DNA of 48,593 nucleotides from assembly GCA_020845635.1 (NCBI GenBank), contig JADLFI010000024.1, positions 1 through 48,593 of the forward strand, read 5' to 3'. The stretch comes from Bacteroidia bacterium. Its GTDB lineage: Bacteria; Bacteroidota; Bacteroidia; UBA4408. The position numbers were made by a program, and so were the translations under genes. Each line of letters begins with the position of its first letter. Position 1 is the stretch's first letter. This document shows, in pieces, positions 15,071-22,902 of the stretch. The notes beneath the pieces were generated by a model. It saw only the letters and a program-made list of their open reading frames with translations, was not told the origin of the DNA and did no database searches.

Positions 15071-15427
15071 TCAACCTTCCCATATCTTGTTTGAGTCATA
15101 TATAACCTTACTTTTTTCAGGATTCCATATTTTATAATTTACTTCTGTAATACTACACTTTTCATTATAAGTGACATCCCATGAGGAGTTTGTACAAGTA
15201 TCCATGTGGCAAAGAGGTGCAAACCATGTTTCAATAAAAATTCCGCAAGAATCATCTGTTGGGTTTATCATTGATATTTCGTTATTTCCAATTAGGAAAC
15301 CTTTTCCTAGCGTCAATATTGGATTGCAATAATTTATTATATTTTCATTAATAGGCACAGTGGTAAATTGAACAAAAGAATCAAAGTTAAAGATTAACAG
15401 TATGTTTAATAAGTATCTCAAATTCAA
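15071..15427 (-). CDS. Small secreted protein, apparently cut short by TGA
   Basis: ATG at 15427 opens a 118-residue frame with a hydrophobic N-terminus (LLNILLIFNF) that could be a signal peptide. Six cysteines lie in the mature part (such as CHMDTC near 73-78), which suggests disulfides in an exported protein. The frame stops at TGA 15071-15073 after KIWEG but continues in the same phase for 37 codons (ADNALGYYKANYYPYEITFY…) to a TAA at 14960. That tail has protein-like composition, so the gene may be a nonsense mutant of a 155-residue protein. It starts 12 bases after the 602-residue gene, probably in one transcript. No family recognised. Confidence 0.5.
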   Translation of the reverse strand: MNLRYLLNILLIFNFDSFVQFTTVPINENIINYCNPILTLGKGFLIGNNEISMINPTDDSCGIFIETWFAPLCHMDTCTNSSWDVTYNEKCSITEVNYKIWNPEKSKVIYDSNKIWEG

Positions 15428-15439
15428 TTTTTACTGTTT

Positions 15440-17248
15440 TTATGTCGTCACTATTTTAATTTTTTTTACGTCTAATAATTGCAACTCATTAGCTAATAAA
15501 TCAAGAGTGGCTTTTGAATTATTTAATACCAATTGCTGATTGTTTCTATAATAATCAATACCCGATTGAAGGTTTTCTTTAAATTTAGTATAGAATTTTT
15601 CTTGTTTTTCATCCATAGAGTCCCAACAGTCGGATAACTTCTTTTTTAAATAATCAATATATAACTTTAGTTCGTTTACAAACATGTGAGGCCTTTCGAG
15701 TTTATAATTTATTTTTTCAATACCATAAATATGATTTACCATGTTTTTGAGTGTGTAAATCCCTGAGAAGAAAGCGGTATTTGGTCCGGGACAAATTGTA
15801 ACGGCTTTAATATTGTGTGGTATATTCATATTATTATTAATGCGTACCGAGCTGCTTAAACCTTCACACAAACAATCTTTTTCTTCTACTTTAGTAATGC
15901 GTTTTTGTAATTCGTCTTCTGATAAATTTAAACTTCTTAATTGCTTAATTTTTAGATTCTGGTATTGTCGTGATGCGGTACATATTATATTTTCGGTAAA
16001 TTCTGTATTACTCGAAAGGTATTTTTTGTAGCAGGGGCTACCGGGTCTGTTTTTTGAAACCCTCTCATTTATCTGTATTTCGGAGCTTGTATTTCGTAAG
16101 TTATGAAATGGAACTCCCAAAGGTGAAGCATCACTTAGGTAAAAATCTTCCTTTTTTGCATTTCCCAATTTGTTTAAAGTTTCAGGGTCAACATTGGTGG
16201 CTTCCGGAACCAATAAAAAAGGGCTTCCCCATCCGGTTCCGTCTAATTGATAATAGGATATTAAAAAATCTTGTTCTTCAGCCGTTCCAATACCACCTTG
16301 AGCAGTAATTCTTTGCTCGGGTATTTGATTAAATACGTTTTTATTATTCTCGCTAAGGTAGGTATTGCATATCTTAAAAAGCTCCATTTGTAAGCTTTTT
16401 TTGTTTATCTTAAATTCCTCAAGTATGGGCCCCATCAAATGTCCTTGTGTGGCAAATGCGTGTCCACCACAGTTTAAACCCGATTCAATCCTATATTCCG
16501 AAACCCATAAGCCTTTTTTAGCAAGTACTTTTCCTTGTGTCATGGCCGAACGGAAATCACTCACTTTAAGGATAATTTTCTTTTCTAAGTTTTGCTGACT
16601 GTTGGGGTAAAACGCTTGAAAATTGCTTAAATAATTAAACAGTCTGGGGTTATAACCTGCCGATATTACAACAGATGAGCATAGGTTACTATTGGCAAAA
16701 CCGCGCAATGCACTTAAAGCTTCAGAAAACTCATCAGGCAATTGGTTTCCACTTTTGCTTAGGCCCGGATTATCAACTTTAGCCATAATATTAACATCTA
16801 TATCTCCGGCTACAATTGAATTTATTAACTTTTTTTGAAGTAATAATTGTTTGTCACTATCTTTCTCTTCAAGCATTTTAAGGTACTCAATTTTTAATGC
16901 TGATAAATTGGGCAATAAATCAAAATATTTATTCAGGTCGCTGCCTTCCTTAAAATCTAATGTTTTTAAATGTGTAATCTGCTCCTCAACTAATTGTTTT
17001 AATAGGTTAAGATAGCTTGTTATACGCTTCGCACGCGAGTCATTATCGTGTTTTTTAATAGGGATATATTCAATATTGTTTTTATGACAATAATAATTTC
17101 TTAGGTCTTCAATTATTTCATCATCAACTATGGATACAACTGATGAAATGCCATAGCGAGCCACCTTTAATGGAGTGTCAATACTGAAACTAATTCCTAA
17201 TACAGGAATGTGAAATGTATGCAGATTTTTTTGTGTCATTTGAAGCAT
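15440..17248 (-). CDS. Uncharacterised conserved protein with NMO/PfaD-like barrel and Cys cluster
   Basis: The 602-residue cytosolic protein starts with HIPVLGISFSIDTPLKVARY (12-31), like the entry of nitronate monooxygenase or PfaD-type FMN barrels. SGLNCGGHAFATQGHL (256-271) resembles their GGH segment, and AQGGIGTAEEQDF (316-328) their phosphate-binding loop. GTGWGSPFLLVPEATNVD follows at 337-354. A cysteine-rich segment comes next: Cys406 (RPGSPCYKKYL), Cys423 (CTASRQYQ), Cys459-x-Cys461 (DCLCEGL) and Cys486 (CPGPN). A helical, Lys-rich C-terminus ends the protein. An FMN oxidoreductase with an Fe-S or zinc site is my inference. I recall relatives only as hypothetical proteins in Bacteroidota. 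It lies 42 bases after the PP2C gene. The start is Met1 or Met4. Confidence 0.72.
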   Translation of the reverse strand: MLQMTQKNLHTFHIPVLGISFSIDTPLKVARYGISSVVSIVDDEIIEDLRNYYCHKNNIEYIPIKKHDNDSRAKRITSYLNLLKQLVEEQITHLKTLDFKEGSDLNKYFDLLPNLSALKIEYLKMLEEKDSDKQLLLQKKLINSIVAGDIDVNIMAKVDNPGLSKSGNQLPDEFSEALSALRGFANSNLCSSVVISAGYNPRLFNYLSNFQAFYPNSQQNLEKKIILKVSDFRSAMTQGKVLAKKGLWVSEYRIESGLNCGGHAFATQGHLMGPILEEFKINKKSLQMELFKICNTYLSENNKNVFNQIPEQRITAQGGIGTAEEQDFLISYYQLDGTGWGSPFLLVPEATNVDPETLNKLGNAKKEDFYLSDASPLGVPFHNLRNTSSEIQINERVSKNRPGSPCYKKYLSSNTEFTENIICTASRQYQNLKIKQLRSLNLSEDELQKRITKVEEKDCLCEGLSSSVRINNNMNIPHNIKAVTICPGPNTAFFSGIYTLKNMVNHIYGIEKINYKLERPHMFVNELKLYIDYLKKKLSDCWDSMDEKQEKFYTKFKENLQSGIDYYRNNQQLVLNNSKATLDLLANELQLLDVKKIKIVTT

Positions 17249-17290: not shown

Positions 17291-20200
17291 TTAAAATCTT
17301 ATTCCCATCACCAATACATCATCTAGTTGTTCTTGCGTTCCTTGCCATTGTGTAAAGAATAGCTGTATGTGTTTGTATTGTTCTTCCATACTTTTATCTT
17401 GAATGGAACCTAACATTTCTTTGAATTTTTTTGACATGAGTTTCTTCCCGTTTTCTCCACCAAATTGATCTACATACCCATCAGTATATAAATATATGGT
17501 ATCACCTTCATAAAACTGTATAACATGATTGGTAAAGGTTCTTTTTTCTTCACTCTGAATACCACCAATTGAAAATTTATCGGCTTTTATTTCTTCAATA
17601 AATGTTTCTCCCAAGTTAATCCCGAATTGTTTTTTATAATCATTACCTCTAAATATTATTAAAGGTCTTAATGCTCCTGAAAATTCAATTGTTTTATTTT
17701 TACGGTGTATATGGCACAAGGCTATGTCCATTCCATCACGGGTTTCATTTTCTTGTTGCTTTAAAGAATCTCTAATTCCAATATGTAAAAGCTCTAAAGT
17801 TTTTGAGGGTCTAAAATCATCGCTTTCCTGTATAATTTGATTGAGCAAGGAGTTTCCAATCATACACATAAATGCACCGGGTACACCATGACCTGTACAA
17901 TCAGCTACAGCCACATACACATCATTTTCATCGCTACTTGATTTTATTTTGTTTTTTATATCTACATACCAATAAAAGTCACCACTAACAATGGCCTTGG
18001 GTTTATAAAATATAAATGAGTTGCCAAATATTTTTTTAAACTGTCGGATACTTGGTAGTATGGCCTCTTGTATTCTTTTAGCATAGGTTATACTATCTGT
18101 AATTTCTTTATTTTTATTCACAATCTCTTCATTTTTTTCGAGGAGTGAAGAGTTCTTTTGCTCTATTTCAATGGTTCTGGCTTTAACTTGTTTTTCTAGC
18201 GAAATTTTCGCTTGTCTTAAATATCTGGTTCGAAAAGTAATGTAAGCTGCAATCAGCGAAATAAGAGCAACACTACATAACACAATAAACCATACTCTTT
18301 TATAAAAAGGGGGTATTATTTCAAATGAAAATTCCAGAGGTTTTTCGGTACAAACATCATCGCTGCTACATGCTTTAATAACAAACTTGTATTTGCCGGG
18401 CGGTAAATGTGAGTATGTTACTTTTTTGATACCATACTCCTCATTCCATTTTTCGTCAAGTCCTTCGAGCTGATATACATATTTTATTTTAGAAACATTT
18501 TTAAAGTTTAGCCCAATGAAGTGAAAGCTTATTTCATTCTCGTTATGATTAAATTTTGATTTTTGATTAAGTGAATAAGAGGTTGAGAATATTTCGAAGT
18601 TTAACAAGTATAGAATAGGAGGAACTACTTTCTCTTGTTGCTGATGTAGGTTTAACAATGTAGCGCCATTAACAGTTCCAAACCATAGACTACCGGATTT
18701 ATCATAATATGTAGCATTTGTTTTGGTTTCAATAGCAGTGAATCCTTCGTTAGAAGAATAATTACGAAAGGTATTTTTTTCCGGATTAAATTTTACCAAA
18801 CCCATATTGGTGCCAATCCATATATTATTTAACGAATCACAAGTAATTAAAGTTATGTAATCAGATATTAAACCTTTCTTTACATTATAATTAATAATTT
18901 TATCGCCTTCTTTTTTATAAATACCTCCCCCTTCGGTACCTATCCATAAGTTACCGTTAAAATCATTACAAAACGATGTAGGACTGTTATGATTAACATT
19001 GCCTTTATATCGATTTATAGTTTTATTGCTATAATACCAAATCCCGGACTCACGTGTCCCAATCCAAACTGTTCCTTTGGAGTCTTTGTGAATTTTAAGC
19101 ACTATTAATTTATCAAGCTCTGATTTATCTTTAAATTCTCCTGTTTTTATATTATAGGTGGTAAGTCCTGAGCTGGTCGCTATCCATAGCTCATTTTCAA
19201 TCATAGATAAATCGTTAATAAGCGAATGATTAATACTTAAAGTATGAACTAATTTTCCGCTATGAGCATCATATACTCCTATATCTCCTTTAAAGGTTGA
19301 TACATATATTTTGTTTTCATGTTTACAAAAAGCGGTTACAAGATTATTTCTTAAATCTGATTTTAAATCTAAATGTTTTACATTATTTATAAAGTAGTTA
19401 TTTTTTAAAGTTAAAATATCAATTCCGTCATTAGTTCCCAACCAATATTTGCCATTGTTGTCCTCTATTATGCAGTTGATTACTCCGTTATTTAATTTAT
19501 CTTCTAGCGTATAGTGAATAAATTTGAAGCCCATAAACTGAGCTAAACCTTTGTCCTGAATTCCGGCCCATAATATTGACTCGCGTCCTATAAACAAGCT
19601 ACGAACTTTATTGCCGCTTAATCCATTTTTATCAGTAATACTTATAACTTCCTTATCTTTAATATATACTATTCCTCCTTCCCAGGTAGCCGCCCAGATA
19701 CTGCCATTATTAGATATTAGAGCGGTTATGAAATTAGATTTTAAACCATCAGATAACCCAAATACTGTAGAAGTACTGTCTTTAATTTGATAATTTACTA
19801 TTCCCTGACTGGTTGTGCCAAACCAATAATTACCCCAACTGTCTTGTGTCATGGAGGTGTATTCAAAGAAAGGAAAGCCTTTGGGTTTAAAAAATATAAA
19901 GCTATCATTAATAGCATTGTAGTATTTAATTCCTAAGTCGGTTATAAACCATACTTTATTATCTTTATCAATGTAAGTCGAAAAAACGATATCGCTTAAT
20001 TTTTCATTGATGCTATATATTTTATACTCTTTACTTTTAGGATTGAGTTTAATTACGCCACTGCCTATGGTGCTTATCCAAAGATTACCTTCAGTGTCTT
20101 TATTGATATCGTTTATTCTGTTAGGTTTTTCTTTTAAGTCTAAATTAAAATGATGAAATATATTTCCATCGTAATAAGATATTTTGCCTAATGAATAACC

Positions 20201-20506
20201 TATCCAAATTACCCCTTGATTATCTTGGCAAATAGTATTAACAGAGGCTTCACTTAACCCATCATTAGTACTAAAATTAGTGAAATTTTGTCCGCTGAAT
20301 TTTGAAAGTCCTCCATCAGTAGCAAACCACATATAACCTTCCTTGTCTTGTAAAATATCATTTACATTCGATTGTATTAACCCGTCTTTAAGAGAATAAT
20401 TATTGAAATTAAATGTTTGTGCGTAGAGATAATTACAGCCTAAAGACTGAATTACTACCATAAACAGAAGAACAATTTTTATAAAGTTGATGCTGTTTTT
20501 TAGCAT
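17291..20506 (-). CDS. Reg_prop/Y_Y_Y sensor with SpoIIE-type (PP2C) phosphatase output
   Basis: This 1071-residue membrane receptor has a signal peptide (1-30) and then about fourteen Reg_prop propeller repeats (about 35-620; examples DKEGYMWFATDGGLSKF, NGKYWLGTNDGI, KGTVWIGTRESGI). A Y_Y_Y domain follows (about 655-732, ending PPGKYKFVIKA). One membrane segment lies at 738-759. A coiled coil at 765-805 joins it to a cytoplasmic SpoIIE phosphatase (810-1071). Metal-binding acidic residues are visible in SGDFYW (841-846), ADCTGHGVPGAF (868-879), YTDG (1007-1010) and LDDVLV (1061-1066). Relatives usually end in a histidine kinase or diguanylate cyclase; here the output is a Ser/Thr phosphatase. 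The TPR-caspase gene ends 2 bases upstream, so the two are surely co-expressed. Confidence 0.93.
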   Translation of the reverse strand: MLKNSINFIKIVLLFMVVIQSLGCNYLYAQTFNFNNYSLKDGLIQSNVNDILQDKEGYMWFATDGGLSKFSGQNFTNFSTNDGLSEASVNTICQDNQGVIWIGYSLGKISYYDGNIFHHFNLDLKEKPNRINDINKDTEGNLWISTIGSGVIKLNPKSKEYKIYSINEKLSDIVFSTYIDKDNKVWFITDLGIKYYNAINDSFIFFKPKGFPFFEYTSMTQDSWGNYWFGTTSQGIVNYQIKDSTSTVFGLSDGLKSNFITALISNNGSIWAATWEGGIVYIKDKEVISITDKNGLSGNKVRSLFIGRESILWAGIQDKGLAQFMGFKFIHYTLEDKLNNGVINCIIEDNNGKYWLGTNDGIDILTLKNNYFINNVKHLDLKSDLRNNLVTAFCKHENKIYVSTFKGDIGVYDAHSGKLVHTLSINHSLINDLSMIENELWIATSSGLTTYNIKTGEFKDKSELDKLIVLKIHKDSKGTVWIGTRESGIWYYSNKTINRYKGNVNHNSPTSFCNDFNGNLWIGTEGGGIYKKEGDKIINYNVKKGLISDYITLITCDSLNNIWIGTNMGLVKFNPEKNTFRNYSSNEGFTAIETKTNATYYDKSGSLWFGTVNGATLLNLHQQQEKVVPPILYLLNFEIFSTSYSLNQKSKFNHNENEISFHFIGLNFKNVSKIKYVYQLEGLDEKWNEEYGIKKVTYSHLPPGKYKFVIKACSSDDVCTEKPLEFSFEIIPPFYKRVWFIVLCSVALISLIAAYITFRTRYLRQAKISLEKQVKARTIEIEQKNSSLLEKNEEIVNKNKEITDSITYAKRIQEAILPSIRQFKKIFGNSFIFYKPKAIVSGDFYWYVDIKNKIKSSSDENDVYVAVADCTGHGVPGAFMCMIGNSLLNQIIQESDDFRPSKTLELLHIGIRDSLKQQENETRDGMDIALCHIHRKNKTIEFSGALRPLIIFRGNDYKKQFGINLGETFIEEIKADKFSIGGIQSEEKRTFTNHVIQFYEGDTIYLYTDGYVDQFGGENGKKLMSKKFKEMLGSIQDKSMEEQYKHIQLFFTQWQGTQEQLDDVLVMGIRF

Positions 20507-20508
20507 GT

Positions 20509-22902
20509 TTATTTTTTTATGAAAAAGAAAGTACCATTTTGATCTTCAAGTCCGCTAATGTTTCCAAATTTAGGCTTTTGTTTTTGATTTTGTTCAACTG
20601 CTGAAATAACTTTTTCGGTTATTTTATCAATAGAGATACATTTATCGGGTGTGTTGTTTAATATGGTGGCAAATGTTTTTGTAAAAATTGAATTGTCTGA
20701 TGCCTTCTCCCTGTCTGTACTGGTAAATACCTGTGCTGACTTTAATTTGGTAGATTCCCAATCATTGCAATCTTTAGGTTGGGTTTCGCCACGCATAGCT
20801 AAATAAAAAGCAGGGCCGGTTTCACAGGCATCGCTAATAACCAAAGTATGTCTAAGTTTGTATAATGACAAATAGCCCTTTAAACTGGTAATCGGAAAAT
20901 AGGTGTATTCATCTGTCTTTGAGGCATCGGTTGGCAGCCAATATCCTGTTTCGTTCAAATATCTGCCATGACCGGCAAACCAAACTAATAAAGATTGAAC
21001 ATTACCCTTATTAATTTGATCTCTTAACTCTATAGAGAAGAAACGATCCATTTGCGCCTTGGTCATGTTAGGTTTATGAATGATTTTACTAATGTTATAG
21101 TTGGCCAAAGCACTCTTCATGGTTATAATGTCTTTTTTTGAACCTTCCAAAGAAGGTAAACTTTGATAGTTGCTATTTTCAATAAAAACCACCCATGTTC
21201 GCCCCATAGGGTTTTTCTGTTCCTCTTCAGCTAATACTCTATTGATATAGTAGGCTATTCGTTTTCTATTGTCATAAATATCACTAGCCTCAATTACCAA
21301 GGAGTCAGTTTTTTCAATATTAATATTTAGTGAAAAAGTAGGATTGGTATTTTCGGAAGAAAAAGTTGCCATTTGACCATTAATGATAATTGACTCTACC
21401 AAACTTTCGTCATCAATTTTTCCTTCTACATATAGATTGTTAATATTGCTGTTTTCAGGTAGTATTTCTTTATCAAAGGTAATAAAAGGGCTTATTACTT
21501 CAATTTTAGGAGGAGTTGATTCTGTTCTTAATAACTCGTAGGTTTCCGTAGTTGTGTTAAAGTAAACATCAGTTACCGAAATGGTTACTTTATCCTTATT
21601 CTCTACAGGTATTTGTGCGCTGAATGATGGATTGTTGTCATCTTCTTTGAAGTTGGCCGGAACCCCGTCAATCACTATTGATTTAATATTACTTTCATCA
21701 CTTATTTTTCCTTTAATCGTACCTATTTGCTTATTCTTTGGAACTCTTATTACTTTCTTCCCTTCTTTATCATTGTTATAGGCAAATTCAATTTGTGGAT
21801 TATTTGATTCTTTATAATATTCATAAGCCTTTTCTTTACAAATTCCTAAAGCACTTTCTATACTTTTCTTGTTAAATCCTTCTTTCTTGGCAAGTATAAA
21901 TTCTTCCTCGGCTTCTTTAAATTTGTTTAATGATTGGTAACATAAGGCTCGATAATAATGTGCTTCCGGAAATTTATCACGAAACAAAATAGCATTGGTA
22001 AAATCACCGATAGCATCGGGGTATTTTTCTTGCTTTTTATACATTAACCCTCGTTCAAAATAGGCTAAAGAATTTTTTTCATTGATTTGAAAAGCTTTAA
22101 CAAAGTTTTCTTCGGCATTTAAAAAATCATTTTTAGCTGAGTAGGTTATGGCACGTTGGGTGTAAATATTGTCATCATTGTTGTCGTATGATAGAGCAGT
22201 GTTTAAGTTTTTTAATGATTCCTCATAACTTCCTGTTTTGCGTTGAGCAACGGCTAAATTGATAAAATAAGGTTTGTAAGCCATTTTGTCTTTAGCTTCT
22301 TTATATTCTTTGCTTAAATACATACATGAAATAGCTTTCAAATAACTTTGTATAGCTACTTGGGTATTTCTAGTACTGTCCATTACAACTCCTTTAATAA
22401 AGTGAGAATAATCGTTAGTGTTGTCATAATCAAGAGCTGTATTTATCTCCTTAATGGCTTCATCATATTCACCCAGCTTAATTTTATCAATGGCCATTTT
22501 TTGGTAAGTTTCAATCGTTTTATTTTTTATCTGCACCATAGTACTAAACATTTCGGTAGCTTGATTATAATTTTCAATCAACAAATAATCAATTAATGCT
22601 TTACGATACAAATCTATTTCTCCGGGTTTAATGTTTAAGGCCGATCGGTAATCGTTTATCGCTTCTTCATACCTATTCATCTTTTCTAAGCAGAATGCTC
22701 GTTCCAGATAGCAATCAAAATCAGAATTGTTTTGTTCAATAAGTGTGGAATATACCTGAAAAGCCTCTTCGTACCTTTGTGAATCTTTTAACTTGCGTGC
22801 TTCTTCTTTGTTAGCAGGTACATCTTGCCCATAAGCAATCATAAGATTGCTTAATACTCCAATGAGGCAAATTAAAATATGTTTGTATTTTAAATTTATC
22901 AA
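20509..22902 (-). CDS. Exported TPR protein with Ig-like domains and caspase-like (C14) peptidase
   Basis: A signal peptide (1-25, ending MIAYGQ) is followed by about eight TPR repeats (30-345), two related beta-sandwich domains (about 392-457 and 465-553; both carry the pattern SI-x-I-x-G) and a caspase-fold domain (567-797). The catalytic pair is visible: His645 in WFAGHG and Cys693 in ISDACETG. The domain start RTWVVFIENSNYQSLPSLEG is typical of bacterial C14 peptidases. The start is TTG at 22902; an in-frame TAA 12 bases upstream rules out longer forms, and the next Met would lose the signal peptide. It is predicted to act outside the cytoplasm. It is the first gene of the block with the PP2C receptor. 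Confidence 0.92.
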   Translation of the reverse strand: MINLKYKHILICLIGVLSNLMIAYGQDVPANKEEARKLKDSQRYEEAFQVYSTLIEQNNSDFDCYLERAFCLEKMNRYEEAINDYRSALNIKPGEIDLYRKALIDYLLIENYNQATEMFSTMVQIKNKTIETYQKMAIDKIKLGEYDEAIKEINTALDYDNTNDYSHFIKGVVMDSTRNTQVAIQSYLKAISCMYLSKEYKEAKDKMAYKPYFINLAVAQRKTGSYEESLKNLNTALSYDNNDDNIYTQRAITYSAKNDFLNAEENFVKAFQINEKNSLAYFERGLMYKKQEKYPDAIGDFTNAILFRDKFPEAHYYRALCYQSLNKFKEAEEEFILAKKEGFNKKSIESALGICKEKAYEYYKESNNPQIEFAYNNDKEGKKVIRVPKNKQIGTIKGKISDESNIKSIVIDGVPANFKEDDNNPSFSAQIPVENKDKVTISVTDVYFNTTTETYELLRTESTPPKIEVISPFITFDKEILPENSNINNLYVEGKIDDESLVESIIINGQMATFSSENTNPTFSLNINIEKTDSLVIEASDIYDNRKRIAYYINRVLAEEEQKNPMGRTWVVFIENSNYQSLPSLEGSKKDIITMKSALANYNISKIIHKPNMTKAQMDRFFSIELRDQINKGNVQSLLVWFAGHGRYLNETGYWLPTDASKTDEYTYFPITSLKGYLSLYKLRHTLVISDACETGPAFYLAMRGETQPKDCNDWESTKLKSAQVFTSTDREKASDNSIFTKTFATILNNTPDKCISIDKITEKVISAVEQNQKQKPKFGNISGLEDQNGTFFFIKK

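Follow-up and report, generated by a model that had tools for sequence, protein, structure and literature searches.

A 602-residue protein encoded in the window, by which is meant the whole stretch of 48,593 nucleotides analysed, belongs to a common, large and unnamed family of Bacteroidota, and is best explained as a member of the nitronate monooxygenase (NMO) superfamily that stands with FabX and UfaA there. The chances are about even that it is an FMN and iron-sulphur acyl-ACP dehydrogenase by which unsaturated fatty acids are made when oxygen is low, its chemistry and substrate being judged from FabX. The barrel, the catalytic residues, most of the ACP-docking charges and the low-oxygen genomes and neighborhoods (33 of 80 loci) together point to this reading. 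A preliminary description had placed a 602-residue ORF at exactly 15440-17248, with its strand unstated; the frame is there, on the minus strand, which is open throughout, and the plus-strand reading of the same stretch is full of stops. The motifs IPVLG (residues 14-18), CGGH (260-263) and GGIGT (318-322), and cysteines at 406, 423, 459, 461 and 486 in the contexts PGSPC, CTASRQ, CLCEGL and CPGPN, are likewise where that description put them. The gene and its immediate surroundings are as follows.

15440-17248, minus strand: ORF of the FabX-like protein, P0001; 602 aa, ATG start, stop at 15440-15442
17291-20506, minus strand: Reg_prop/Y_Y_Y/SpoIIE-phosphatase (PP2C) protein, upstream of the FabX-like gene
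20509-22902, minus strand: TPR protein with a caspase-like C-terminus, upstream of the PP2C gene
15071-15427: 118-aa ORF without a credible family, following the FabX-like gene

Members of the family occur in 30 of 100 genomes of a set of relatives and in 112 genomes of a phylum-wide sample of 296, and relatives are encoded by at least 579 stretches of the GTDB contigs (the scan used two patterns, so that a gene may have been counted twice). The GTDB loci analysed are the best 80 of these at least 579 matching stretches. Their titles are mostly of Bacteroidota, such as Pedobacter, Mucilaginibacter, Sphingobacterium, Pontibacter, Algoriphagus, Chitinophaga, Dyadobacter, Flavobacterium and others, and outside that phylum include Ignavibacteriae, Chlorobiota, Kryptoniota and one Omnitrophota MAG. 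Members in the first alignment are 46-60% identical to the window protein. Searches of Pfam, NCBIfam and PDB sequences with P0001 as a single sequence gave no match at E up to 1, the NCBIfam models for FabK (TIGR03151) and PfaD (TIGR02814) included. Scanning genome contigs with a single sequence found none of the relatives that an alignment-based scan recovered, and tblastn against phages and plasmids found no relative of the family. Searches of the literature by words, not by sequence, which cannot exclude a description, turned up no recognizable one. One genome has a second, broken copy, in pieces with stops, beside the intact one (G184:C1:4371161-4372862), and another (G241) has two near-full-length family matches.

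FabX is the characterized NMO-superfamily member with a [4Fe-4S] cluster beside its FMN and a subdomain at residues 267-363, and it dehydrogenates decanoyl-ACP by means of His182 and FMN, producing cis-3-decenoyl-ACP for unsaturated fatty acid synthesis; one electron is parked on the cluster, 13.4 A away, and the electrons then pass to O2, which the Helicobacter pylori enzyme needs, while in FabK the place of the cluster is taken by an NAD(P)H site (PMC8626469). The preliminary description had taken it that nitronate monooxygenases never have such a Cys region, a premise that fails since the FabX branch has a C-terminal [4Fe-4S] Cys subdomain (PMC8626469), and the combination of barrel and cysteines is therefore a variant and not unprecedented. 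A second report (PMC11300592) describes a Neisseria gonorrhoeae FabX homologue as essential to the anaerobic synthesis of unsaturated fatty acids, with its acceptor unknown, and states that expressing a FabX gene from a Bacteroidales donor in B. theta raised tolerance to ceftriaxone.

The AlphaFold2 model of the 602-residue protein, made from a 20-sequence alignment (pLDDT 84.0, pTM 0.87), has both the barrel and the helical tail that had been expected of it, arranged in the following regions.

16049-17227, minus strand: FMN-type TIM-barrel region, residues ~8-400, with a helical insertion at ~43-145 (AlphaFold2 model, FabX match)
15443-15703, minus strand: helical C-terminal tail, residues 516-602, absent from FabX (model)

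Foldseek against the PDB ranks H. pylori FabX first to third (best E 2.1e-9), followed by PfaD and the enoyl reductase DfnA. VIA ranks FabX entries first to fifth, with Z of 20.5-20.9 and all others at or below 18.9: FabK and PfaD are at ~17-19, NMOs at ~16-18 and IMPDH at ~15.5. The best FabX match (Z 20.9, rmsd 3.5) aligns 337 residues between model residues 3-510 and chain residues 4-363, and given where the FabX subdomain lies at least ~74 of its 97 residues must be included. The NMO/PfaD-like barrel of the preliminary description is thus supported by fold, and by the profile comparison below, with FabX as its closest form. A search of PDB sequences with the family profile gave only apolipoprotein A-I helices (E 0.02-0.05), matched on the tail, and 4 of 20 family members match Pfam Apolipoprotein (best E 2.3e-4); this was set aside as generic helix similarity, the maximal helical moments of the two tail helices being reached by 21% and 27% of shuffles.

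For the profile comparison a FabX/UfaA alignment of 13 sequences (A4) was assembled, two from genomes of the phylum and 11 from plasmid records. The first canonical FabX appeared among the weaker FabK matches in the genome set, and phmmer relates it to H. pylori FabX at E 3.1e-71. With hhalign, a 100-sequence alignment of the new family matches FabX/UfaA at 87.5% probability (E 3.6e-6), against 7.3% for FabK, 0.5% for four NMOs, 0.9% for a second NMO-like pair, 0.2% for IMPDH, 0.2% for reversed FabX and 0.1% for reversed NMO. Whole, near-whole and barrel queries against the 13 FabX/UfaA sequences gave 85.0-90.2% (E 1.5e-6 to 6.4e-6), and the controls stayed at 7.3-8.8% (FabK), 0.3-0.7% (four NMOs), 0.2% (IMPDH) and 0.2-0.3% (reversed FabX); the barrel by itself (residues 5-400) reached 86.7% (E 4.4e-6), and alignment A1 against A4 reached 89.7%. 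These E-values are not database E-values because each comes from a single pairwise comparison, and it is the contrast with the controls that counts, FabK and IMPDH being represented by single sequences and the NMO control by four. Dropping alignment columns 425-456 or 405-440 left the FabX probability at 89.3% and 85.0%, respectively, compared with 90.2%, so that the insertion cannot be placed in that way.

Correspondence at the level of residues was sought by aligning the family to FabX in three MAFFT modes, with H. pylori numbering taken through a phmmer alignment. The positions concerned are these.

16460-16471, minus strand: C260-G261-G262-H263, with H263 the counterpart of the FabX catalytic His182 (100/100, 3/3 MAFFT modes)
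16484-16486, minus strand: E255, counterpart of FabX E175, which binds the phosphopantetheine/thioester (100/100, 3/3 MAFFT modes)
16511-16561, minus strand: residues 230-246, counterpart of the FabX ACP-docking helix alpha7, with S230, R233, K240, K244 and K245 (conservation, alignment)
16283-16297, minus strand: GGIGT, residues 318-322, at the position of the loop that serves the FMN phosphate in NMO-superfamily proteins (G318, G319 and G321 100/100; alignment)

In all three modes Ser149, Glu175 and His182 of FabX fall on S230, E255 and H263; the GGI loop falls on G318-G319, the SPxGxP segment on S375-G378-P380 and the late GxN on G488-N490. Conservation was scored over 100 sequences comprising the window protein, the best 80 of the at least 579 GTDB loci and 19 relatives. 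H263, E255 and R233 are present in all 100 and S230 in 98, K240 is Lys in 92 and Arg in 8, K244 is kept in 99, and K245 is Lys in 99 and Arg in one, with the net charge of residues 230-246 between +2 and +4 in every member. The ACP-docking helix of FabX is alpha7, with K152, K159, R160 and R164 (PMC8626469). Ungapped extension from S149/S230 puts K152, K159 and R164 on R233, K240 and K245, and R160 on V241, where it is not kept, so three of the four docking positions are basic in the new family.

C260, C406, C423, C459, C461 and C486 are Cys in all 100 sequences, as G261, G262, H263, G318, G319, G321 and the PGPN after C486 are also invariant; the five cysteines pointed out beforehand are thus constant among homologs, and Cys260 joins them. 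Neither outcome that the preliminary description had named as refuting, a missing barrel or varying cysteines, was seen. The features of this region are listed here.

15704-16156, minus strand: Cys subdomain, residues 365-515, candidate [4Fe-4S] region (68-sequence alignment, fragment model)
16031-16033, minus strand: C406 (100/100)
15980-15982, minus strand: C423 (100/100)
15872-15874, minus strand: C459, in C-L-C-E-G-L, to be compared with FabX C320-I-A-D-G-L (100/100)
15866-15868, minus strand: C461 (100/100)
15779-15793, minus strand: C486-P-G-P-N at the F-T-G-A-N segment of FabX (100/100; G488 and N490 on the FabX Gly and Asn)

The spacing in the new family is C-x16-C-x35-C-x-C-x24-C. All 13 FabX/UfaA rows have four invariant Cys in the motif C-x(2-5)-C-x3-C-x(7-12)-C, which the cysteines at 406, 423, 459, 461 and 486 do not match and which is absent from the family, position 410 being Cys in only one of the 100 sequences. 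By MAFFT, the FabX ligands C300, C304, C308 and C320 find no one-to-one counterparts: two of the three modes put C406 and C423 on the second and fourth FabX Cys, and one puts C459 on the fourth. The resemblance of C459-L-C-E-G-L to FabX C320-I-A-D-G-L is one judged by eye. A cluster held by four Cys would have to include new ligands. A Cys before GGH, such as Cys260, is found in no row of alignment A4. The Cys segment by itself compares with FabX at an hhalign probability of 0.5%, and segment 456-520 by itself at 0.2%. Folded alone, fragment 365-515 gave a model from 68 sequences (pLDDT 83.8, pTM 0.74) without a PDB match (best Foldseek E 1.2, best VIA Z 3.2); FabX, FabK and NMO entries are absent from the structure lists of this fragment, an absence that excludes nothing. 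Because the full-length match spans the FabX subdomain but the fragment alone is unmatched, the modelled Cys region would be a FabX subdomain that has changed strongly, or else a new subdomain in its place.

The C-terminal Cys site most likely holds an iron-sulphur cluster, as judged from the relation to FabX. The suggestions in the preliminary description of an Fe-S cluster and of action on lipids gain backing, as does an acyl substrate, from the specificity of the FabX match, the cluster itself being putative. It is improbable that the invariant cysteines instead bind zinc or are structural, the enzyme then being simply an FMN reductase, for example an enoyl reductase, devoid of a cluster: their spacing is not that of FabX and the Cys fragment is without a match to a known cluster domain, but the family is specifically related to FabX, the cluster-bearing branch, and another enoyl reductase would be mostly redundant because a FabK query matches 90 of 100 relatives, the genome of the window included.

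Compared with FabX (H. pylori HP0773), then, the new family has in common the barrel fold, the catalytic His of GGH, the substrate-binding Glu and Ser, a basic ACP-docking helix kept for the most part, a C-terminal Cys region and the SPxGxP and GxN segments. In contrast, it has ~600 residues where FabX has 363, adding the helical insertion and the tail, and its five invariant Cys are differently spaced, with a sixth before GGH and a Cys segment that is unmatched when taken alone. UfaA (NGO1024) of N. gonorrhoeae is linked to the family through a gonococcal gene of this kind (L122), which is part of the matching FabX profile, and through the low-oxygen setting of other members of that profile. 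It differs in carrying a four-Cys motif like that of FabX and in having none of the extra helical regions. FabK and PfaD share the barrel superfamily, but hhalign probability for FabK is 7-9% and P0001 matches neither of the two NCBIfam models. The fold relation to NMO (PF03060) is distant, and none of 20 aligned family members matches PF03060 at E up to 1. On the best reading the new family would work like FabX, yet it is not filed as FabX because the defining Cys motif fails and the protein is ~240 residues longer than that of H. pylori.

By analogy with FabX, the acyl-carrier protein would dock on the basic helix and the acyl chain enter the barrel, where His263 would remove the C2 proton and a bound FMN would take the C3 hydrogen. 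The product would be trans-2-enoyl-ACP, which could isomerize to the cis-3 form, the enzyme probably being an isomerase as well as a dehydrogenase, and elongation of the cis-3 form by the fatty-acid cycle would lead to unsaturated fatty acids. The putative cluster would draw electrons off the flavin one at a time. An enzyme of this kind would let Bacteroidota that have neither FabA nor canonical FabX make unsaturated fatty acids when their O2-dependent desaturases are starved of O2. It is a tentative and rather unlikely extension that the family is a third class of cluster-bearing acyl-ACP dehydrogenase, alongside FabX and UfaA but with its iron-sulphur site wired in another way, that supplies much of Bacteroidota with unsaturated fatty acids at low oxygen and delivers electrons not to O2 but to the respiratory chain. 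If the acyl-ACP dehydrogenase reading is right, the FabX kind, which a single Cys motif has defined up to now, would become wider, and there would be a bearing on the electron acceptor of anaerobic acyl desaturation.

The genomic setting was assessed by clustering the ORFs of the best 80 of the at least 579 GTDB loci with those of the window and scanning 30 cluster representatives. Across the 81 loci, the commonest identified recurring neighbors are genes of low-oxygen respiration. Within six ORFs of the gene, the best 80 loci have HemN (14 loci), ccoNO or a relative (16), CcoG (8), ccoP (7), a Cu-type ATPase (10), CBB3-type cytochrome c (6), NosD (5), NosZ (4), NosL (4) and ScdA/RIC (4). At least one of these is present at that distance in 33 of the 80, and none is in the other 47 or in the window itself. 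Their frequency per ORF slot is 0.06-0.14 with no clear fall-off between 1 and 10 ORFs, so that the link is one of regional clustering and not of a fixed operon. HemN or cbb3 operon genes occur about once per genome by our estimate, and a random gene would therefore seldom be that near to them.

Across the 296 genomes, ccoN scores over the cut-off in 83 of 112 carriers, leaving 29 below it, and in 61 of 184 non-carriers, an odds ratio of 5.8 that takes no account of the kinship of the genomes. An O2-dependent desaturase (PF00487) is present in 88 of the 112 carriers and missing from 24, and is present in 85 of the 184 others, kinship again being ignored; these 88 carriers can therefore make unsaturated fatty acids by other means in air. 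FabA was detected at E 1e-30 in 3 of the 296 genomes, one of them over the cut-off, and canonical FabX in 2 of the 296 (one sequence at E up to 1e-40, and the 13-row profile at E up to 1e-60). At the thresholds used neither is found in any of the 112 carriers, and the gene described here is a concrete, testable candidate for their route to unsaturated membrane fat at low oxygen. The genome of the window carries ccoN together with two desaturase matches and a FabK-like gene.

The same data leave a fair-sized place, at distinctly less than an even chance, for an FMN/Fe-S oxidoreductase of this superfamily acting on a different substrate (some other acyl thioester, a quinone, a nitro compound or an enoyl compound) and serving metabolism at low oxygen or under nitrosative stress, not unsaturated fatty acid synthesis. 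FabK, PfaD and NMOs, with other activities, also match the fold, the neighbors include NosZ, NosD, NosL and ScdA/RIC, most carriers already have a desaturase, and the Cys site and the extra helices differ from FabX. Against this, the profile match is specific to FabX, and 92-100 of 100 members keep the Glu that serves acyl-ACP in FabX, together with most of the basic helix that does so.

Canonical FabX/UfaA genes themselves lie in islands for nitrate or N2O respiration on two of the four plasmids that were viewed with their flanks. On Cupriavidus necator pHG1 (262276-287262) the gene is between nosZ and nnrS/narK, and on a Caballeronia plasmid it comes after narGHJI and a response regulator. 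On the Pseudanabaena galeata plasmid pPg_03 a four-Cys gene of the FabX type is between psbA and heme oxygenase genes, and on an Aulosira plasmid the FabX/UfaA gene has a psbA-type gene nearby and no low-oxygen link in its flanks. The Cupriavidus gene is annotated as a nitronate monooxygenase, and two U32-peptidase genes and an SCP2 gene are in its vicinity.

In the window the gene had been assigned to a caspase/PP2C operon. The shared strand and the short gaps, 42 bp between the FabX-like and PP2C genes and 2 bp between the PP2C and caspase genes, support that assignment by position only, and this is not the usual setting of the family. A role of the FabX-like gene in serving the adjacent caspase/PP2C signalling cluster is very improbable, since for all the closeness of the three genes the neighborhood varies greatly among the 81 loci, and by ORF clustering a neighbor from the same cluster as the PP2C gene is seen in 5 of them, the window included. 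The partnership was set aside because it does not recur across loci.

Two other associations were encountered. A 338-aa NMO-superfamily protein with a GTPC motif is encoded elsewhere in the genome of the window (G000:C26, ~54540-55487), with a relative in a further genome (G035), and the long ORF beside it is presumably acyl-CoA synthetase-like. In four family loci (L027, L037, L052 and L058) the gene for NadA, quinolinate synthase, directly follows the FabX-like gene, and in three of these NadA is followed by a gene for an FAD-binding protein, which we take to be probably NadB.
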